64,000 nt of DNA from Saprospira sp. CCB-QB6. Lineage in GTDB: Bacteria; Bacteroidota; Bacteroidia; Chitinophagales; Saprospiraceae. A model generated the notes under the pieces. It had not been told where the DNA came from, ran no database searches, and worked only from the letters and a program-made list of their open reading frames with translations. The position numbers and the translations under genes were made by a program. The first letter of the stretch is position 1; the number at the start of each line of letters is the position of its first letter. The DNA lies in assembly GCF_028464065.1 (NCBI RefSeq), contig NZ_CP116808.1, positions 3,563,501-3,627,500 on the forward strand, written 5' to 3'. This document shows positions 56,627 through 64,000 of this stretch, one piece after another.

Positions 56627-57277
56627 TTATTTTGCAGCCAAAGTAACTTTTAGACCCATCTCATCATTGATGAGGTTATCTTCCATACCAGAGTAGTCAA
56701 TACCCCAAACAGAACGCTTGATTGTAAACTGAGGAGTAGTAGCCTGTACTGCGCCATCTGTAATGTTTACATTAGCAGGAATAGTTACGCTTTTCTCAAT
56801 GTCACGCATTTTTAGGTTACCCTCAATACGGTGAGTTACGCCTTCTTCTCCTTCTGCTGCAGAAACTGAAGTGATCGTGAAAGTAGCTGTAGGAAATTTC
56901 TCTACTTCAAAGAAATCATTATTCTTCAAGTGACCTTCCAATTTAGCTTTTCCACTCTCTTCGTCCAAGTCCAAAACATTGATGCTGGCCATGTCCAAAA
57001 CAAATGTACCCCCAACAAGCTGACCGTCTTTTACTTGCAATTCTCCTGACTGCAATTTCATGTCACCATTGTGGCTACCAGATACTTTGCTACCTACCCA
57101 CTCTACTTTAGAGCTCGCTACATCTACAGCCAAAGTCTTGGCCTCAGCAGCTTTCTCTGCATCTACATTCTTAGCTTCTTGAGCATCTACTTTTTCCCCT
57201 TTAGGAGCCTCGCTACAAGAAGCTGCAAAAAAACCAAGGGCCATCATAAAAAATAAGCTGCGAAATAGTGTTTTCAT
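56627..57277 (-). CDS. YceI-family lipoprotein
   Basis: A 216-residue lipoprotein (LGFFAASC, Cys about 21) with an acidic Ala/Lys/Glu linker and a YceI lipocalin-like barrel (about 50-216; VEWVGSKVSGSHNGDMKL, LKNNDFFEVEKFPTATFTI, DNLINDEMGLKVTL). YceI-type barrels bind isoprenoid-like lipids. Codon use looks optimised, suggesting good expression. Monocistronic. Confidence 0.92.
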   Translation of the reverse strand: MKTLFRSLFFMMALGFFAASCSEAPKGEKVDAQEAKNVDAEKAAEAKTLAVDVASSKVEWVGSKVSGSHNGDMKLQSGELQVKDGQLVGGTFVLDMASINVLDLDEESGKAKLEGHLKNNDFFEVEKFPTATFTITSVSAAEGEEGVTHRIEGNLKMRDIEKSVTIPANVNITDGAVQATTPQFTIKRSVWGIDYSGMEDNLINDEMGLKVTLAAK

Positions 57278-57490
57278 AAGTCTTTTTAAATTTGAATATG
57301 TACTGCTAGAATTAACGTTTTAGACAAACAATAGCAAGACCAAAAGGTTTTAGGCCGCTGCATTTATTTCCTTGCCTATTGCAAATATAGGGATTGTTTT
57401 TAGAATAGATGTATATACATCAATTTTTTTAAAAAAAATTTTCAAGGCCACTCCAAAAGGAGAGGAGCTGCCGCATTTTATTCCTTTTTT

Positions 57491-57605
57491 GGGGCTGCCC
57501 CGCCCTGCGGGCGGGTCGGGCTGTGCGGGGGCTCGCTGCTCGCTCGGCCCTTCAGCGCTAGGCGCTTCGGTCTGGCCTGCGGCCACCCCCTACCATCCCT
57601 CAGCC
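57491..57605 (-). repeat. multi-stem repeat copy 21 (type B)
   Basis: P2 is TGGCC-GCA-GGCCA and P3 is AGCGC-CTA-GCGCT. Exception to the usual rule: the GGCC end, not the GGGGC end, lies nearer to a gene (11 bp from 57616). The other side faces the YceI start 213 bp away; 57278-57490 holds no gene. Confidence 0.9.
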
Positions 57606-57615
57606 AAGGCCCGCG

Positions 57616-58311
57616 CTAATCTTCTTTCTTGGCTCTACGCTTCTCTTCCCGTATAAATGAACTCTCATAGGTGCAGTAACGGTCATATTTAGCCTGATTG
57701 ACGCCCTGCCAAATATCTTTGCCCACCTGCCCCATTTTGAGCATCTGCTCATATAAACGGTTGCCCAAAATTACGCGGTTCTCTACAGAAATATCTCGGT
57801 CCGATACCCGATCGGCTTTTATATGTAGGGCCAACTCAAAAGCCTGATTGGCCCGATGCAGCTCATCGAGCTGCGGCTGATTTAGGCCCACATCTTCTAA
57901 ATGGGCCAGACTCTGCTGCCCCACCCGAATGACTCTTTTGGCACATAAATATAATTTGGGATCACTCATATCACTTAACTTGCTGGTCCCAAACTTACGG
58001 TAACGGCCCGATTTGCTATGGTACTTTTGGCCCACTCGATTCATAATCCCCCGAATCAAACGGCGCACTTCTGCTGCAGCATCTTGCTTCTTTTCTGTGG
58101 CCACCATTTGCTCGCCCATCAACTCCTCATCTGTGGGAATATCAGAAAAGTCTTTGATCAATTCCTCAAAGGCCGCTATATGCCCCGATAAAATCCCATA
58201 CTGGGCAAATTCTTTTTGGTCCTCCTTGAGTTGAAGTAAGAGCTCCATGGCCTGCTCAAATAATTGAGCATCCGAATAATTATAGGCTCTAAAAACAGAT
58301 TGTTTTTTCAT
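57616..58311 (-). CDS. hypothetical helical protein
   Basis: A 231-residue soluble, helix-rich and charged protein with no signal peptide. It begins MKKQSVFRAYNYSDAQLFEQAMELLLQ and has a basic central part (RRLIRGIMNRVGQKYHSKSGRYRKFGTSK). No family or motif is recognised. It stands alone, boxed between multi-stem repeats 21 and 22. Confidence 0.65.
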   Translation of the reverse strand: MKKQSVFRAYNYSDAQLFEQAMELLLQLKEDQKEFAQYGILSGHIAAFEELIKDFSDIPTDEELMGEQMVATEKKQDAAAEVRRLIRGIMNRVGQKYHSKSGRYRKFGTSKLSDMSDPKLYLCAKRVIRVGQQSLAHLEDVGLNQPQLDELHRANQAFELALHIKADRVSDRDISVENRVILGNRLYEQMLKMGQVGKDIWQGVNQAKYDRYCTYESSFIREEKRRAKKED

Positions 58312-58467
58312 CGCTTTTTTGTTTAAAGGCCTAAATATAAAAGTTTTAAATAAATTGTAGAAATTGGTCCGTTGGAAATATCTTGTTTGATGGTTTTTTG
58401 CCCCAAAACTGCCTTGACTAGCCTGAAATTTTTATCAAAGAATGGCCGAAGCGCAGGATTTCCATTC

Positions 58468-58587
58468 GGCCCAGCGCTGCGCAGCGGTGGCGCAAAGCGC
58501 CAGACCAAAGCCCGTAGGGCTGCAGGGCCGAGCGAATAGCGAGCCGCGAAGCATAGCGCCGCAAGGCGAAGCCGCAGCGGAGGCCCC
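58468..58587 (+). repeat. multi-stem repeat copy 22 (type C)
   Basis: Ends GGCC/GGCC. P2 is TGGCGC-AAA-GCGCCA and P3 is AGCCC-GTA-GGGCT. GGCCCC end 74 bp before the next gene. Fills most of the 349 bp gap 58312-58660. Confidence 0.88.
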
Positions 58588-58660
58588 AAATTATCCTGAT
58601 TTACTTCCTAATGATTAGACAATTTGCTTTTTTGAGCCCTAAACCTTCAGAAACGTACCC

Positions 58661-59650
58661 ATGAATAAATTACTTTTGCCCCTGCTGCTCTGTTTTTCTT
58701 TCCTTGCAGCCGCCCAAGAAACTGACCATTTAGCAAGCGCTGTATTATTGAAGAATAGTCTGCGGCTAAATGCATATTGTTCGACTCTTTTGGAGCAGGA
58801 TACAGCGGCCCATCAGGCTTTGAAACTAGAACTGCTAGACTACTTGGGGGATACTACTAAACAGTATGTTTTGTATCGGAATAGGGAGGGGCAGAGCAAA
58901 TATTTTGTGCAAACAGAAAGGCAGCTTGTGGCCATTTACCTCCTTTCGGTACTTCATCGTCAAAATGATACCTTTGCTGATGAATTAAGTATTTATGACT
59001 ATAGAAATAAGCAGGAGTTAAGGACCAATACTCCCGCTTTTGAGCTTCTTGTAGAGGAGATGAAAGCTTGGGCCAAGGGCGAACAGAAGCAGTTTCCCCT
59101 AGAGGAAGGAGAGTTGTATTGGGGGCTTGACAGCTGTCCCTGCAGGAATCTTCGAGATATACAAGCAAAAGAAGACTACCACTTAGATAGCTTGATCTTA
59201 TTGAAGGAGTATAATCGGCTATATACGCTTACTGCCTGTGATACAGCCGCCCATCAGGCCTTGAAACTGCAGCTACTGCAGCACTTAGGCGATACCGCAA
59301 GGCAGATCTCTTTTTTGCATTATGAAAATAGCAAGGATAAATCCTTTGTAGAGCTCAATACAATTACTGTTCGCAAGAAAATAGAAAGGCAGCTAGCCGC
59401 TATGTATATTCTTTCGGCCCTTCATTATCGAACGAATAGATTTAGTCGTCAATTTTGTATTTATGATGATAAAAATAAGCGAGAACTGAAGCCTGGCGAT
59501 TCCGCTTTTGAGCTTCTTGTAGAGGAGATGAAGGCCTGGGCCAAGGACGAGCAGAAGCAGTTTCCCCTAGAAAAAAGAGGACTTTCTTGGGGCCGGCCAG
59601 AGATGAGCTCTGAAGAGGTATTGAAGGCACTTAGAGGAGGAGGAGAATAA
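58661..59650 (+). CDS. secreted protein with an internal tandem duplication
   Basis: A 329-residue protein with signal peptide MNKLLLPLLLCFSFLAAAQ. Residues about 30-165 and 185-320 repeat each other: DTAAHQALKL, then a cell of ERQLxAxYxLSxLH, then xAFELLVEEMKAWAK and EQKQFPLE. The nucleotide sequences of the two FELLVEEMKAWAK parts are almost the same, so the duplication is young. Helical, no recognised family. A block of REP hairpins and a transposase follow. Confidence 0.75.
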   Translation: MNKLLLPLLLCFSFLAAAQETDHLASAVLLKNSLRLNAYCSTLLEQDTAAHQALKLELLDYLGDTTKQYVLYRNREGQSKYFVQTERQLVAIYLLSVLHRQNDTFADELSIYDYRNKQELRTNTPAFELLVEEMKAWAKGEQKQFPLEEGELYWGLDSCPCRNLRDIQAKEDYHLDSLILLKEYNRLYTLTACDTAAHQALKLQLLQHLGDTARQISFLHYENSKDKSFVELNTITVRKKIERQLAAMYILSALHYRTNRFSRQFCIYDDKNKRELKPGDSAFELLVEEMKAWAKDEQKQFPLEKRGLSWGRPEMSSEEVLKALRGGGE

Positions 59651-59652
59651 CA

Positions 59653-60020
59653 GGTTTTAGCACTTAATTTTACTGCTAGCCAATCATTATCTAGGGCCAT
59701 GGGCTAAAGCCCATGGTTGCGAGTCTATGCAAACTAGCGGGCTGAAGCCCTTGTTTGCAGCTAGGGGTTCATTTTCTTGCTTAGCGAATAGCCTCAGGGC
59801 AAAAAAGCGAACAAGGACTTTAGTCCGTCGGTTCGCTCAGTCAACAACCCTGGGCTTCAGCCCAGGACAGTAAGGATAGACGTTGTTTTTAGCACTTAAT
59901 TTTACTGCTAGCTAATCATTGTCTAGAGGCTTGGCCCTAAACTGTCTAGGGCCATGGGCTAAAGCCCATGGTTGCGAGTCTATGCAAACTAGCGGGCTGA
60001 AGCCCAGGGCAGTAAGGATA
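59653..60020. repeat. REP-like hairpin block upstream of the transposase
   Basis: Two units of CCATGGGCTAAAGCCCATGG (59697-59716 and 59952-59971), each followed by TTGCGAGTCTATGCAAAC and a GGGCTGAAGCCC hairpin (59739-59750 and 59994-60005). Between them lie a GGACTTTAGTCC hairpin (about 59816-59827) and CCTGGGCTTCAGCCCAGG. The lead-in TTTTAGCACTTAATTTTACT also repeats (about 59653 and 59889), so the block is duplicated. No gene between 59651 and 60106. Confidence 0.85.
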
Positions 60021-60106
60021 GAAAAAAAGCTGTCAACTTTTATATTTACGTTTTTTACTGCTTACTTTTGTATCCGTATGAGTTGCTGATTAAAAGAAAT
60101 CCTGAA

Positions 60107-60478
60107 ATGTATAAAAATGCGGTATATATCCATATGGTCTGGCCAACCTATAAAAGGTTAGAGTTTTTGAATGAAGAAGCGTTGCCGATTTGTTTAAATG
60201 CGCTAAAATTGATTGCTAAAGAAAAAAATATTCGGCTATTAGAGGTGAATGGTTCTATAGATCATATTCATTGTCTTTTTGCACTAGGCCCTCAAGATTC
60301 ATTAGCAAAAATTGCTTTTTGGCTAAAAGGTCGATCGTCTAGAATCTTAAACCAAATGTATTATGAAGAAGGTGAATTTAAGTGGGCTAGAAACTACTAT
60401 GCACGTTCCGTTAGTTTTTCAGAACTAAGTACCGTTCAAGAGTACATACGAAATCAAGCATTAAATCATAAATTATAG
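60107..60478 (+). CDS. REP-associated / IS200-type Y1 transposase
   Basis: About 123 residues from the ATG at 60107 (MYKNAVYIHMVWPTYKR); an in-frame TTG at 60068 gives 13 more residues that do not look like the family. HUH motif is H-I-H in SIDHIHCLF (about residues 53-55) and the catalytic Tyr is in VQEYIRNQ (about 113). This class nicks single-stranded DNA at hairpins. REP hairpin units flank it on both sides, typical of a RAYT rather than a free IS200; no TnpB is present. It is moderately AT-rich relative to neighbours. Confidence 0.9.
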   Translation: MYKNAVYIHMVWPTYKRLEFLNEEALPICLNALKLIAKEKNIRLLEVNGSIDHIHCLFALGPQDSLAKIAFWLKGRSSRILNQMYYEEGEFKWARNYYARSVSFSELSTVQEYIRNQALNHKL

Positions 60479-60517
60479 TGCTACATATACTATTACATAA
60501 CAGATTCTATCTTACCT

Positions 60518-60573
60518 CCATGGGCTAATAAAGCCCATGCTTGCAGGTCTATGCAAAGAGCGGGCTAAAGCCC
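60518..60573. repeat. REP-like hairpin unit downstream of the transposase
   Basis: CATGGGCTAATAAAGCCCATG (60519-60539 region), spacer TTGCAGGTCTATGCAAAG and GGGCTAAAGCCC (60562-60573), followed by TTGTTTGC. Third copy of the unit seen at 59697 and 59952. Confidence 0.85.
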
Positions 60574-60615
60574 TTGTTTGCTATTGAGGCTTGGGTTCAT
60601 TTCTAGACCTAATAA

Positions 60616-60645
60616 AATGGGCTGAAGGTTTTAATCTTCAGCCCA
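60616..60645. repeat. single GGTTTTAATC hairpin
   Basis: GGGCTGAAGG pairs with a CTTCAGCCC arm around a TTTTAA core. It belongs to the same GGTTTCAACC-type family found in arrays elsewhere, here as a single copy. Confidence 0.7.
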
Positions 60646-60718
60646 TAATTATAAACAACCCAAGGCCCCAATTTCTCCCCAAAATTCATCTCCTCTTTTA
60701 AAGCCGCTCATAAAACTG

Positions 60719-60726
60719 TACTTTTG
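60719..60726 (+). promoter_or_regulatory. -7 box of the carboxypeptidase gene
   Basis: TACTTTTG exactly matches TAnnTTTG, 21 bp before the start codon. Confidence 0.5.
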
Positions 60727-60746
60727 TTGCAAAATTTACAAGAACT

Positions 60747-62246
60747 ATGAGCTACCAAAAATATAAGGCCGCCTTGCAAGAAATCAAGGACCTGCAAGCT
60801 GCCCAAGCCGTTTTGCATTGGGATATGGAAACCTTTATGCCCGCTAAGGGCCTGCAACAACGCAGCCGACAATTAGCCAGCCTTGGCCGCTTGGCCCAAG
60901 AAAAGGCTCAAGCCCCCGAATTAGGCGAACTCCTACAAAATTTATTGGCCCAAAAAGAACAGTTTAGCCCCGCAGAACAGCGCAATCTAGAACTCTCTTG
61001 GGAGGATTATCAAGAGGCGCAGAAATTAAGCCCCCAATTTGTCGAGCAACTCTCTTTGCTGACCTCTAAAGCCCAAGCCGCCTGGCAAAAGGCCCGCCAA
61101 GCCAAGGATTTTTCTCTCTTTGCCCAACCCCTGAGCGAACTGCTGGCCGCCAAAAGAGAAGAGGCCAAAATCCGCGCAAAAGCAGGACAAGGCCATCTCT
61201 ACGATAGCCTTTTACGCAGCTATGAAAAGGAGGCGACCGTGGCCCGCTTAGATCCCATTTTCGAACAGCTAAGCAGCGGTATTCGCCAGCTTTTGGCCAA
61301 GATTGCCGCCCAGGGAACCCCACCCCAAAAAGAGTTTTTAAACCACCGCTTTCCCGCCGACCAACAATGGGCTTTTAGCCTCGAATTGCTCGAGCAGATG
61401 GGCTACGACTTTGAAGCAGGCCGACAAGATGCTTCTACCCACCCTTTTACCACTTCTTTTGGGACCGAGGATGTCCGCATTACCAGCCGCATTGATGAGG
61501 AGGACCTGATGTCTTGCCTCGGCAGCTCGATCCATGAAGGTGGCCACGCCCTCTATGAACAAGGCCTATTGAGCTCGGAATATGGCCTGCCCCTAGGCGA
61601 AGCCGTTTCGCTCTCTATTCACGAGTCGCAATCTCGCCTTTGGGAGCAAAATGTGGCGGGCTCTGATGTCTATTGGCAACATAATTTTAGCCGCCTCCAA
61701 AGCCTGTTCCCCTCCCAATTGTCTGGCGTAAAGGTCCAAGATTTTTATCGAGCGATCAATTACCTGGCGCCCAATTTTATCCGCACCGAGGCCGATGAGG
61801 TCCACTATCATTTGCATGTGGGCATCCGCTACCAACTGGAAAAACAACTGATTGGCGGAGAACTAGAGGTGGACCAATTGGAGGAGGCTTGGAATGAGGC
61901 CTATGAACGAGAACTGGGCATCCGTCCCGATAATCCCCAATTGGGCGTTTTACAAGATATTCACTGGTCGGCTGGACTCTGGGGCTATTTCCCCACCTAT
62001 AGCCTCGGCAGCCTTTACGCTAGCCAGTTTTTTGCGGCCGCTCAATCGGCTATGCCCGAACTCAAAAGCCAGATTGCCAGAGGCGAATTGCTGCCCCTAC
62101 GCGAATGGTTGCGCAAAGAAATTCATGAAAAGGGCCGCCACTATAGCTCCGAAACCCTTTGCCAACAGCTAACGGGCCAAGGCCTTTCCGTCGATTTTTT
62201 CTTGGCGTATCTAGAAGAGAAGTACCGCAAAATTTACAATTTTTAA
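60747..62246 (+). CDS. M32 carboxypeptidase (Taq type)
   Basis: A 499-residue cytoplasmic metallopeptidase that removes C-terminal residues. The zinc site is H263-E264-G-G-H267 with the downstream Glu in IHESQSRLWE; further M32 signatures are HPFTTSFGTEDVRITSR and IRTEADEVHYHLH. Length fits the family. The FAD oxidoreductase gene follows after 3 bp, so the two are cotranscribed. Confidence 0.95.
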   Translation: MSYQKYKAALQEIKDLQAAQAVLHWDMETFMPAKGLQQRSRQLASLGRLAQEKAQAPELGELLQNLLAQKEQFSPAEQRNLELSWEDYQEAQKLSPQFVEQLSLLTSKAQAAWQKARQAKDFSLFAQPLSELLAAKREEAKIRAKAGQGHLYDSLLRSYEKEATVARLDPIFEQLSSGIRQLLAKIAAQGTPPQKEFLNHRFPADQQWAFSLELLEQMGYDFEAGRQDASTHPFTTSFGTEDVRITSRIDEEDLMSCLGSSIHEGGHALYEQGLLSSEYGLPLGEAVSLSIHESQSRLWEQNVAGSDVYWQHNFSRLQSLFPSQLSGVKVQDFYRAINYLAPNFIRTEADEVHYHLHVGIRYQLEKQLIGGELEVDQLEEAWNEAYERELGIRPDNPQLGVLQDIHWSAGLWGYFPTYSLGSLYASQFFAAAQSAMPELKSQIARGELLPLREWLRKEIHEKGRHYSSETLCQQLTGQGLSVDFFLAYLEEKYRKIYNF

Positions 62247-62249
62247 GCT

Positions 62250-63317
62250 ATGCCACAGCTAGATTATTTGATTCTGGGCCAAGGCTTAGCGGGTAGCCTT
62301 TTGGCAGATCGCCTCTGGCAGGCTGGCCAAAAGGTGGCCCTAATCGATCAGGGCCATCAACAGGCTTCTTCCCAATTGGCGGCGGGAATCATGAACCCCA
62401 TCGCTGGCCGATGGTTTACCAAAAGCTGGCGAATGGAGACCCTTTTGCCGCTGGCTTTTGCCTATTATCGAGAGCTGGAAGAGCGCCTAGACTGCCCCTT
62501 ATTAGAAGAAAAAGCGGTGGCCATGCTTTTCCGCCTGCCCGAAATTGTCAATAACTGGATGGCCCGATCTACGGACCCCAATCTGAAGTTGTTTATCTCC
62601 CCCGACTTTGACCAAGCCGCCTATGAACGCAGCTTTGGCGCCCTAGCTGGCGGGGTAGAGTTCTCGCCAGCAGGCCGCCTCAATCTGCCTTTGTTCATTG
62701 AACGCTACCGAAGCTATTGGCAGGAGCAGGGACAGCTTTTGCTAGAGGAAGCCTTTGATTTTGAGGCCCTAGAATTACTAGAAAATGGGGTAGCCTATAA
62801 GTCCCTACAAGCCAAGGCCATCATTTTCTGCGAGGGCGCTCAGGTGCTGCAGAACCCCTATTTTAATGCCCTGCCCTTTAATCCCGCCAAGGGGGAGGTC
62901 CTCTTTGTCGAAATCCTCGATTATCCCTTTGATGGGAAGATGGTCAAGGATGGGGTGTTTATTATCCCGCTGGGCGATCAGCTGTATTGGGTGGGCAGCA
63001 CCTACGAGCACGAATATGAGTCTTTGGCGCCCACCGATACCGAGAAATACCGCCTGCTGGGGCAGCTAGAGCAGTTGCTGGAGGGCCATTCTTTTAAGTT
63101 GCTGGATCATCAGGCTTCCGCCCGCCCCATACAACGCAAGCGCCGCCCCATTTTGGGCGCCCATCCCAAGCATCCGCAATTGTATATTCTCAATGGCTTG
63201 GGGGCCAAGGGCAGCTATCTGGCGCCTTATTGCTCGGCCCAATTGAGAGATCATTTGCTGCAACAACAGCCTTTGGAAGCTGAATTGGATATTGCCGATT
63301 ATCTAGATTATTTTTAG
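62250..63317 (+). CDS. FAD-dependent oxidoreductase (DAO family)
   Basis: A 355-residue enzyme of the D-amino-acid oxidase / glycine oxidase type. Dinucleotide motif G10-x-G12-x2-G15 (LILGQGLAGSLLADRL) and the C-terminal block LYILNGLGAKGSYLAPYC are visible. It probably oxidises an amine or hydroxy acid; substrate unknown. 3 bp behind the peptidase gene, which might supply amino acids (inference). Confidence 0.88.
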   Translation: MPQLDYLILGQGLAGSLLADRLWQAGQKVALIDQGHQQASSQLAAGIMNPIAGRWFTKSWRMETLLPLAFAYYRELEERLDCPLLEEKAVAMLFRLPEIVNNWMARSTDPNLKLFISPDFDQAAYERSFGALAGGVEFSPAGRLNLPLFIERYRSYWQEQGQLLLEEAFDFEALELLENGVAYKSLQAKAIIFCEGAQVLQNPYFNALPFNPAKGEVLFVEILDYPFDGKMVKDGVFIIPLGDQLYWVGSTYEHEYESLAPTDTEKYRLLGQLEQLLEGHSFKLLDHQASARPIQRKRRPILGAHPKHPQLYILNGLGAKGSYLAPYCSAQLRDHLLQQQPLEAELDIADYLDYF

Positions 63318-63323
63318 GACTTG

Positions 63324-63490
63324 GGGCCCGCGGCCGCCCTTCAATTTGGGGCGGCCGCCGCTATGCTGCGGGGCTCGCTATTCGCTCGGCCCTGCGGCGG
63401 CTGCGCCGCCTGGGTCTGGCCTGACGGCCACCCACTCCGCAGCGCTGGGCCAACGGCCCTGACGGGCCCAAGGGGGCTGCGCCCCCCTTG
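63324..63490 (-). repeat. multi-stem repeat copy 23 (type C)
   Basis: Ends GGCCC/GGGCC; long CGGCCGCC stem at the gene-facing end as in copy 16. P2 is TGGCC-GTCA-GGCCA and P3 is GGCGGC-GCA-GCCGCC. Begins 7 bp after the oxidoreductase stop and extends in GGGCC/GGGGGC hairpins to about 63490. Confidence 0.9.
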
Positions 63491-63529
63491 CCGCTGAGGC
63501 CCAATTGTTTAGCCAAATAAATCAAAGAA

Positions 63530-64000
63530 ATGAAGAAGAAAGATTGGAAAAAGGTAAAGCTGGGGGAGGTTTGTGAGATAACATCAGGAGGAGCATTTCC
63601 ATCAAAACAATTTAATAAAGAAGGCGAAGGGTTACCCTTAATTAGAATCCGTGATGTAAAAAGAGGTTTTTCAGAGACTTATTTTGATGGAGACTATAAA
63701 GACAAATATCTTATTCAAAATGGAGATGCTCTTATCTCTATGGATGGAGAGTTTATTATTGCTAAGTGGAAAGGTGGAACGGCTCTTTTAAATCAACGGG
63801 TTTGCAAGATAACCATTTCAGAAAATGCCTTAGACAAACTAGATAGCAGTTACTTATATCGTTTTTTACCACAACAGCTCAAAAAAATAGAGGATGTAAC
63901 TCCATTTGTTACGGTTAAACATCTATCAGTAAAAACTATTAACGAAATCCAAATCCCCCTCCCCCCCTTATCAGCGCAAAAGGCCATAGCGGCCCAGCTC
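63530..64000 (+). CDS. hsdS: type I restriction-modification specificity subunit, partial
   Basis: The reading frame from ATG 63530 is open to the window end (157 codons). It starts MKKKDWKKVKLGEVCEITSG, the usual HsdS opening, then IRIRDVKRGFSETY, GDALISMDGEFIIAKWKGG and the conserved region TINEIQIPLPPLSAQKAIAA. So this is the first target-recognition domain and the start of the central spacer helix of HsdS, which decides the DNA sequence recognised by the HsdMS/HsdR complex. The gene is AT-rich relative to its neighbours. The codons for PLPPL include a run of seven C (about 63961-63967). Confidence 0.88.
   Translation, partial: MKKKDWKKVKLGEVCEITSGGAFPSKQFNKEGEGLPLIRIRDVKRGFSETYFDGDYKDKYLIQNGDALISMDGEFIIAKWKGGTALLNQRVCKITISENALDKLDSSYLYRFLPQQLKKIEDVTPFVTVKHLSVKTINEIQIPLPPLSAQKAIAAQL

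Follow-up and report, generated by a model that had tools for sequence, protein, structure and literature searches.

The Y1 locus described here is probably a REPtron-like unit of a class 1 single-strand transposase, from the IS200 side of the family, whose hairpin units spread in trans. REP sequences are widespread bacterial repeats. The window, by which we mean the whole stretch of 64,000 nucleotides that was analysed, covers positions 3563501-3627500 of the 4.19-Mb contig of Saprospira sp. CCB-QB6 (own genome, G000); Table 1 gives the features in window coordinates.

Table 1. Features of the Y1 locus and its surroundings
Feature	Position	Strand	Remarks
Larger multi-stem repeat	58467-58590, and 20 further blocks		core GGGCCGAGCGANNNGCGAGC
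Imperfect 13-base direct repeat, left copy	59647-59659	+	read by eye; bounds the gene-bearing stretch
Duplicated block, first repeat	59655-59886	+	starts TTTTAGCACTTAATTTTACTGCTAGC; second repeat from 59887
REP unit type I, copy 1	59697-59758	+	H1 59697-59716, H2 59729-59758
REP unit type II, inverted	59807-59866	-	forms a REPIN-like inverted pair with copy 1
REP unit type I, copy 2	59952-60022	+	second hairpin chimeric
Y1/HUH transposase gene	60107-60478	+	ATG start, 123 aa; Pfam Y1_Tnp, E=1.2e-25
Catalytic residues of the Y1 protein			HUH His53/His55, Tyr113, Gln117
Imperfect 13-base direct repeat, right copy	60497-60509	+	read by eye
REP unit type I, copy 3	60518-60587	+	two hairpins to 60581, then tail; three extra bases in the H1 loop

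A preliminary description, made from the letters alone, had recognised a single-domain HUH/Y1 gene without TnpB, and this is what we find: the gene is surrounded by hairpin units, and a Pfam scan of seven neighbouring ORFs (329, 216, 231, 499, 355, 94 and 88 aa) gave no TnpB family. The catalytic residues are present in the encoded protein, where they occupy invariant columns in an alignment of 40 sequences. We place the start of the gene at its ATG because the extension from an alternative TTG at 60068 carries an in-frame stop in a congener (G001). As for the surroundings, the 329-aa ORF (58661-59650) has an internal duplication and is present at the site in G000 and in the congeners G002 and G005, not in G001; it had no Pfam family above the cut-off and no PHROGs match. 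A hairpin at 60617-60646, perhaps a terminator, precedes the M32 carboxypeptidase gene and is kept in G005. Rfam returned just two weak chance matches over 57000-64000.

The three copies of a two-hairpin unit reported earlier are all there, although the second of them is chimeric and a fourth, inverted unit of type II had been missed. The first hairpin of type I reads CCATGGGCT-RA-AGCCCATGG and is followed by a linker and the second hairpin, GCAAAC..GGGCT-RA-AGCCC..GTTTGC. Type II differs from it by paired replacements on both sides of the stems (CCTGGG/CCCAGG, GCGAAC/GTTCGC, GGACT/AGTCC), and the stems have therefore been preserved by compensatory change. Past the apex of its second hairpin, copy 2 runs on as type II flank, the chimera being joined inside the shared GGGCTGAAGCCC, and copy 3 ends in a CTATTGA tail that resembles the tail of the relatives' units described below. 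The partial duplication of the block also proved real, with 59690-59750 identical to 59945-60005 (100%) and 59655-59702 matching 59887-59934 at 90%. When folded as single-stranded DNA, the four units score better than the mean of their shuffles (z of -2.9 to -4.0), as does the inverted pair formed by copy 1 and the type II unit (z -5.1). A same-arm family of three hairpins occurs at the locus, as against none in the 13 window tiles spanning bases 1-56420.

The units are dispersed far beyond the locus. The own genome has 45+28 oriented matches to their core, REP1 (GGGCTNAAGCCC), and 1+0 to the backward control pattern; the 73 oriented matches correspond to 72 distinct sites, one being symmetric. 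REP1 cores avoid ORFs, as only 5/64 fall in ORFs of at least 150 codons vs 431/1160 random positions from the same 29 loci. The loci read in the own genome contain 26 complete two-hairpin units, of which nearly all are remote from the Y1 stretches; apart from copy 3, the CTATTGA tail is found in one of them, and GT[AG]G lies between the hairpins in 11, several bases off the second hairpin. The preliminary description had called the enzyme the only one in the window suited to move hairpin DNA; in the genome it is not the only one of its kind. The genome search for further genes that had been proposed found three Y1 stretches in the own genome at E<=0.001, which are divergent (the window protein shares 37% and 28% identity with its two paralogues) and each of which lies inside a palindrome family of its own. 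The second family (AGGTTNNAACCT) has 148 sites in the own genome vs 10 for its control, and the third (CTAGGGCCNNGGCCCTAG) has 49 vs 0. At the two paralogue loci (L001 and L003) the Y1 genes sit in tandem arrays of their own palindromes, with periods of about 218 and 207 bases.

The enzyme differs from a classical RAYT, and its fold and HMM matches put it on the IS200 side, class 1. It passes the NCBIfam IS200/IS605 model (75.9 bits, cut-off 55) and falls below the RAYT model NF047646 (28.3 bits, cut-off 80). Its AlphaFold model (mean pLDDT 92.8) finds ISDra2 and IS608 TnpA as the best PDB matches (TM 0.76), with E. coli TnpAREP at rank 30. Against profiles of our own, the protein scored 95.5 bits with that of clade A (79 rows) and 65.6 bits with that of IS200 (5 rows). 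The phylogeny that had been proposed as a check gave support of 64/12 for grouping the window protein with IS200, a grouping that was not rejected, and p-AU values of 0.454 for its placement with the A clade and 0.408 with B; the second tree held every third of the 79 A rows and dropped E. coli rayT, three other long rows, xG004_L111 and xG003_L108.

These affinities raise the alternative of an ordinary insertion sequence of IS200 type, intact or as a remnant, in which case the hairpins would be the element's ends and the scattered copies would be decayed elements. In addition to the HMM match, the fold and the tree, two features of the congeners speak for it. In G002, where the Y1 gene is absent from the site and one unit is left, the 13-base repeat adjoining the gene is present as a single copy (by eye), in a gene-less allele. 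In G001 the gene stands at the equivalent place (L170) with 98% protein identity, and the two genes differ at 3 of 372 bases, with 0 synonymous differences; the neighbours differ by 6.7-8.5%, including 73 synonymous codon changes in 500 (M32 gene) and 40 in 232 (the other neighbour). A near-identical gene between more diverged neighbours indicates recent gene exchange between species. We nevertheless consider this alternative unlikely. The genome has only the three divergent Y1 stretches, with no near-identical copies, complete units lie nearly all at a distance from them, TnpB is lacking among the seven neighbouring ORFs scanned, and the hairpins flanking the gene are inverted, unlike the left and right ends of IS200. 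The locus thus does not look like a free IS200 element with defined ends, and the T-RA-A hairpins are common to the window, A and B clades.

Support for a REPtron-like unit comes from relatives of the enzyme, namely the best 80 of 540 confirmed loci, which were found with a scan by protein pattern alone that made no use of hairpins (it was built on a narrower alignment, a first alignment of all Y1 types being too diverse). The relatives (median length 145) come mostly from Bacteroidota, and also from Acidobacteriota, Chlorobiota, Ignavibacteriota, Cloacimonadota, Calditrichota and others. A hairpin with the T-RA-A apex lies within 600 bases of the gene in 77/80 relatives vs 17/119 control stretches, the 80 loci sharing descent and therefore not being independent draws. 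Same-arm hairpins occur within 800 bases at 50/80 loci vs 4/117 controls from the same loci, and on both sides of the gene at 38/80 vs 1/117. When hairpins with a two-base loop and any closing pair are considered, the apex is T-RA-A in 271/311 near the genes vs 19/67 in controls. The nearest upstream hairpin is inverted in 44/55 cases, and the nearest downstream hairpin is forward in 59/71. We count against our reading that a signature hairpin within 600 bases is missing at three of the 80 loci (L224, L247, L253), and a same-arm pair at 30 of them.

Same-orientation pairs spaced 34-42 bases apart number 93 in 47 loci, one of them spurious, vs 1 in the control parts. After removal of the spurious unit (L210), 46 units were left for model building. 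Their consensus is TTKGGCT-AA-AGCC, a spacer, a 9-bp stem whose sequence is free and whose apex is the same, and a tail C[AT]ATT[CG]A, after which conservation drops to background; the apex and inner stems were fixed by the selection of units, the tail and outer stem were not. There is no GT[AG]G at the hairpin foot in this consensus. Of the pair cells in these 46 units, 98.0% are formed, and the stems covary, with 152 compensatory cells vs 47.5 in shuffled sets and 10-33 when slid. The four outer pairs, which played no part in the selection, are formed in 172/184 cells.

A covariance model of these units (R1) finds 5-85 copies in each of 21/21 genomes chosen from the 80 relatives, all holding such a gene; the counts are lower bounds, with at most 130 candidates scored per genome. 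Five of these genomes lie outside the model and still give at least 55 (L205), 57 (L208), 31 (L212), 47 (L219) and 11 (L264) copies, and two others outside it, G028 and G029, hold at least 9 and 8 units. None was found in 7/7 relatives without any Y1 match. Genomes with other Y1 types gave 0 (G007), 0 (G012) and 1 (G004). Head-to-head pairs with gaps of 6-13 bases, a REPIN-like layout, number at least nine among the places listed. Several of the counts go against the main reading. Three genomes with an A-like gene yielded 1 (G017), 0 (G023) and 0 (G003), the protein of G003 having DHLR in place of HUH, with the second His lost; and the single matches in G001, G004 and G005 are weak (E 0.002-0.003). 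In the Saprospira set as a whole R1 found 0 in the own genome, 1 in G001, 0 in G002 and 1 in G005, and it reached at most 22.7 bits in window positions 58000-62000, so that the unit of the window is either a diverged form of the relatives' unit or merely analogous to it.

Apex and protein clade go together in the pooled counts: hairpins are T-RA-A for the window, A and B clades, C-AA is among those of clade C, and C-closed triloops are commonest in group D, in 10/24 loci. Three D-type Y1 genes (L114, L136, L143) stand in hairpin arrays with three- or four-base loops, another repeat code.

Across the congeners, gene and repeats are less neatly coupled. REP1 matches number 73 in G000, 208 in G001, 101 in G002 and 182 in G005; yet G002 and G005 are without the window-type gene (at the site in G005 no REP1 unit was seen), and G001, which lacks Y1 types B and C, holds 78 and 64 of the other, non-REP1 sites, both of which count against our reading. 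A clean match between presence of gene and presence of repeats among the congeners had to be rejected, as the repeats are still there in congeners that lack the gene. This persistence is what one would anticipate if a domesticated host enzyme bound or trimmed the hairpins for some chromosomal task, for example near the replication terminus, and the repeats were spread by recombination or by older enzymes. The clustering of REP1, with 52/73 matches within 16% of the G000 chromosome, is in its favour too, as is the tie of repeat orientation to the replichore in G002.

That orientation was compared with GC skew in G002, where the sign of the skew flips at 4.19-4.20 Mb, being plus before and minus after. 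To the left of the flip there are 24+/1- REP1 clusters, to the right 1+/13- (p=2.3e-8, 39/47 clusters); the arcs for this comparison were chosen after the list was seen, and the flip point was taken from GC skew. The comparison used 77 of the 101 matches; they form 47 clusters, and the 8 of these at 1.16-2.9 Mb were set aside. The other 24 matches would lie beyond 3.91 Mb if position-ordered. REP3 behaves in the same way in G002, with 14/2 on the left vs 0/15 on the right for all 31 sites (p=5e-7). The polarity is weaker in G000, both for REP1 (16/3 vs 0/4, p=0.004, tied clusters left out) and for REP3 (11/8 vs 1/7, p=0.04, 22/49 sites left out), and in G005 REP3 gives 12/3 vs 3/20 (p=9e-5, 1/39 left out) around a flip point that was derived from the pattern and not from skew. 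Skew and gene direction in G002, both weak, would point to a terminus at the flip, but dnaA is about 150 kb away; tRNA genes and one 20-kb sample gave no decision on fork direction. Read by eye, G002 also has an Rhs/YD-repeat-like region at 660-680 kb (L305).

The flip in G002 is as expected for replication-coupled single-strand transposition. For IS608 and ISDra2 of the IS200 family, a replication-dependent orientation and a preference for termini are reported (PMC5371812), so the polarity pattern needs no host task. In addition, the gene is missing from two of the four close congeners, unlike a core function. We therefore regard a host enzyme as quite unlikely and keep to the reading of a class 1 transposase that spreads its units in trans.

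The preliminary description had also made the enzyme a first candidate for spreading the larger multi-stem repeats of the window, and we rejected it in that role. It is true that both kinds of repeat are abundant in the same four congeners and stand side by side at 58467-60587. However, the REP1 core was found in 0 of the 21 larger window blocks; C-closed triloops make up most of their loops, and only 5 T-RA-A loops were counted across all 21 blocks; and their orientation was balanced in 40 genome samples, while REP1 is polarised. Exact cores of the larger repeat number 806 in G000, 453 in G001, 468 in G002 and 516 in G005, whatever Y1 type is carried, and are thus abundant in the two congeners without the gene. 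We found no link between the larger repeats and this enzyme, and in our view it is highly improbable that they owe their spread to it. At the site ahead of the 329-aa gene, one version of the larger repeat is common to G002 and G005, and G000 carries a second version with different stems, as if the stems had been swapped in place.

How the system compares with those already described depends on which of its features are considered. The layout that had suggested a RAYT, one Y1 gene surrounded by dispersed hairpins of its own, is indeed one of REP processing, and it is shared with class 2 TnpAREP/RAYT systems such as E. coli rayT and the REPINs of P. fluorescens. Also shared are the presence of several genes in one genome with a separate repeat type for each, the inverted pairs and the mostly extragenic position. 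It is the protein that departs from the type, together with the code of its repeats. Published class 2 proteins are marked by a Y---NP motif and a GTAG foot, with GT[AG]G lying 0-2 bases 5' of the hairpin; in contrast, the tyrosine motif is YIRNQ in the window protein, Y---NP occurs in 0/80 relatives, the RAYT cut-off is not reached, a conserved GTAG foot is lacking, and the unit consists of two same-orientation hairpins that have a T-RA-A apex and a spacing of about 37 bases. From IS200/IS605 elements such as IS608 and ISDra2, which it resembles in fold, catalytic residues, HMM match and replication-oriented copies, the system differs in that no element of gene plus ends is seen, no TnpB is nearby and the hairpins are dispersed free of the gene.

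Judged by motif set, the relatives would belong to TnpA subclass 1.2. HUH, WQ and Y---Q--HH occur in 79/80 of them (WQ being partly fixed by the search pattern), and the 80th, L224, breaks off after 22 residues. According to Quentin et al. 2018 (PMC6006769), this motif set goes with the entry REP = no for the subclass, which is known from Cyanobacteria and Bacteroidetes; its members and our relatives, mostly Bacteroidota with a median length of 145, are alike in these respects, but the relatives carry REP-like hairpins. The automatic REP search of that study demanded GTAG or GTGG at the foot. The window protein itself departs from the subclass in having WA and Y---Q--NH and no C-terminal tail, and its paralogue C has YIKNQKEHH and WQ. 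In the open-access literature searched we found no description of REPs for TnpA subclass 1.2, and the subscription literature may hold one; RepRanger 2025 (PMC12306157) makes no mention of RAYT or IS200.

With regard to mechanism, the enzyme would most likely bind the two-hairpin unit in single-stranded DNA and recognise the conserved apex, a closing T-A pair around a purine-A loop. Tyr113 may then cut beside the unit and join it elsewhere, the units spreading in trans and the gene staying at one place. The single strand would most likely become accessible at the replication fork, and the fixed orientation of the repeats on each side of the chromosome would follow from this. Binding, cutting and movement are all inferred here; among the insertions none was seen to be new.

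Taken further, the comparison suggests that a system for spreading hairpins is widespread within an enzyme group surveyed earlier as REP-less. It is possible, and we put this forward only tentatively, that hairpin-spreading transposases had a second origin from the IS200 side (class 1), that they spread in Bacteroidota, Acidobacteriota, Chlorobiota, Cloacimonadota and others, and that their code is free of GTAG: two hairpins, recognised by a common T-RA-A apex and having a sharp C[AT]ATT[CG]A end, would be inserted in single-stranded fork DNA. What we observe is that a transposase group published as REP-less carries a class of repeats with a shared code across several phyla and a sharp end, and that the orientation of repeats is linked to replication in one genus. 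Since these units have no conserved GTAG foot, searches bound to GTAG would miss T-RA-A repeats. The system thus provides a second one in which the movement of REPs can be tested, and it suggests that some of the genes annotated today as IS200 transposase may manage repeats and not be mobile elements.
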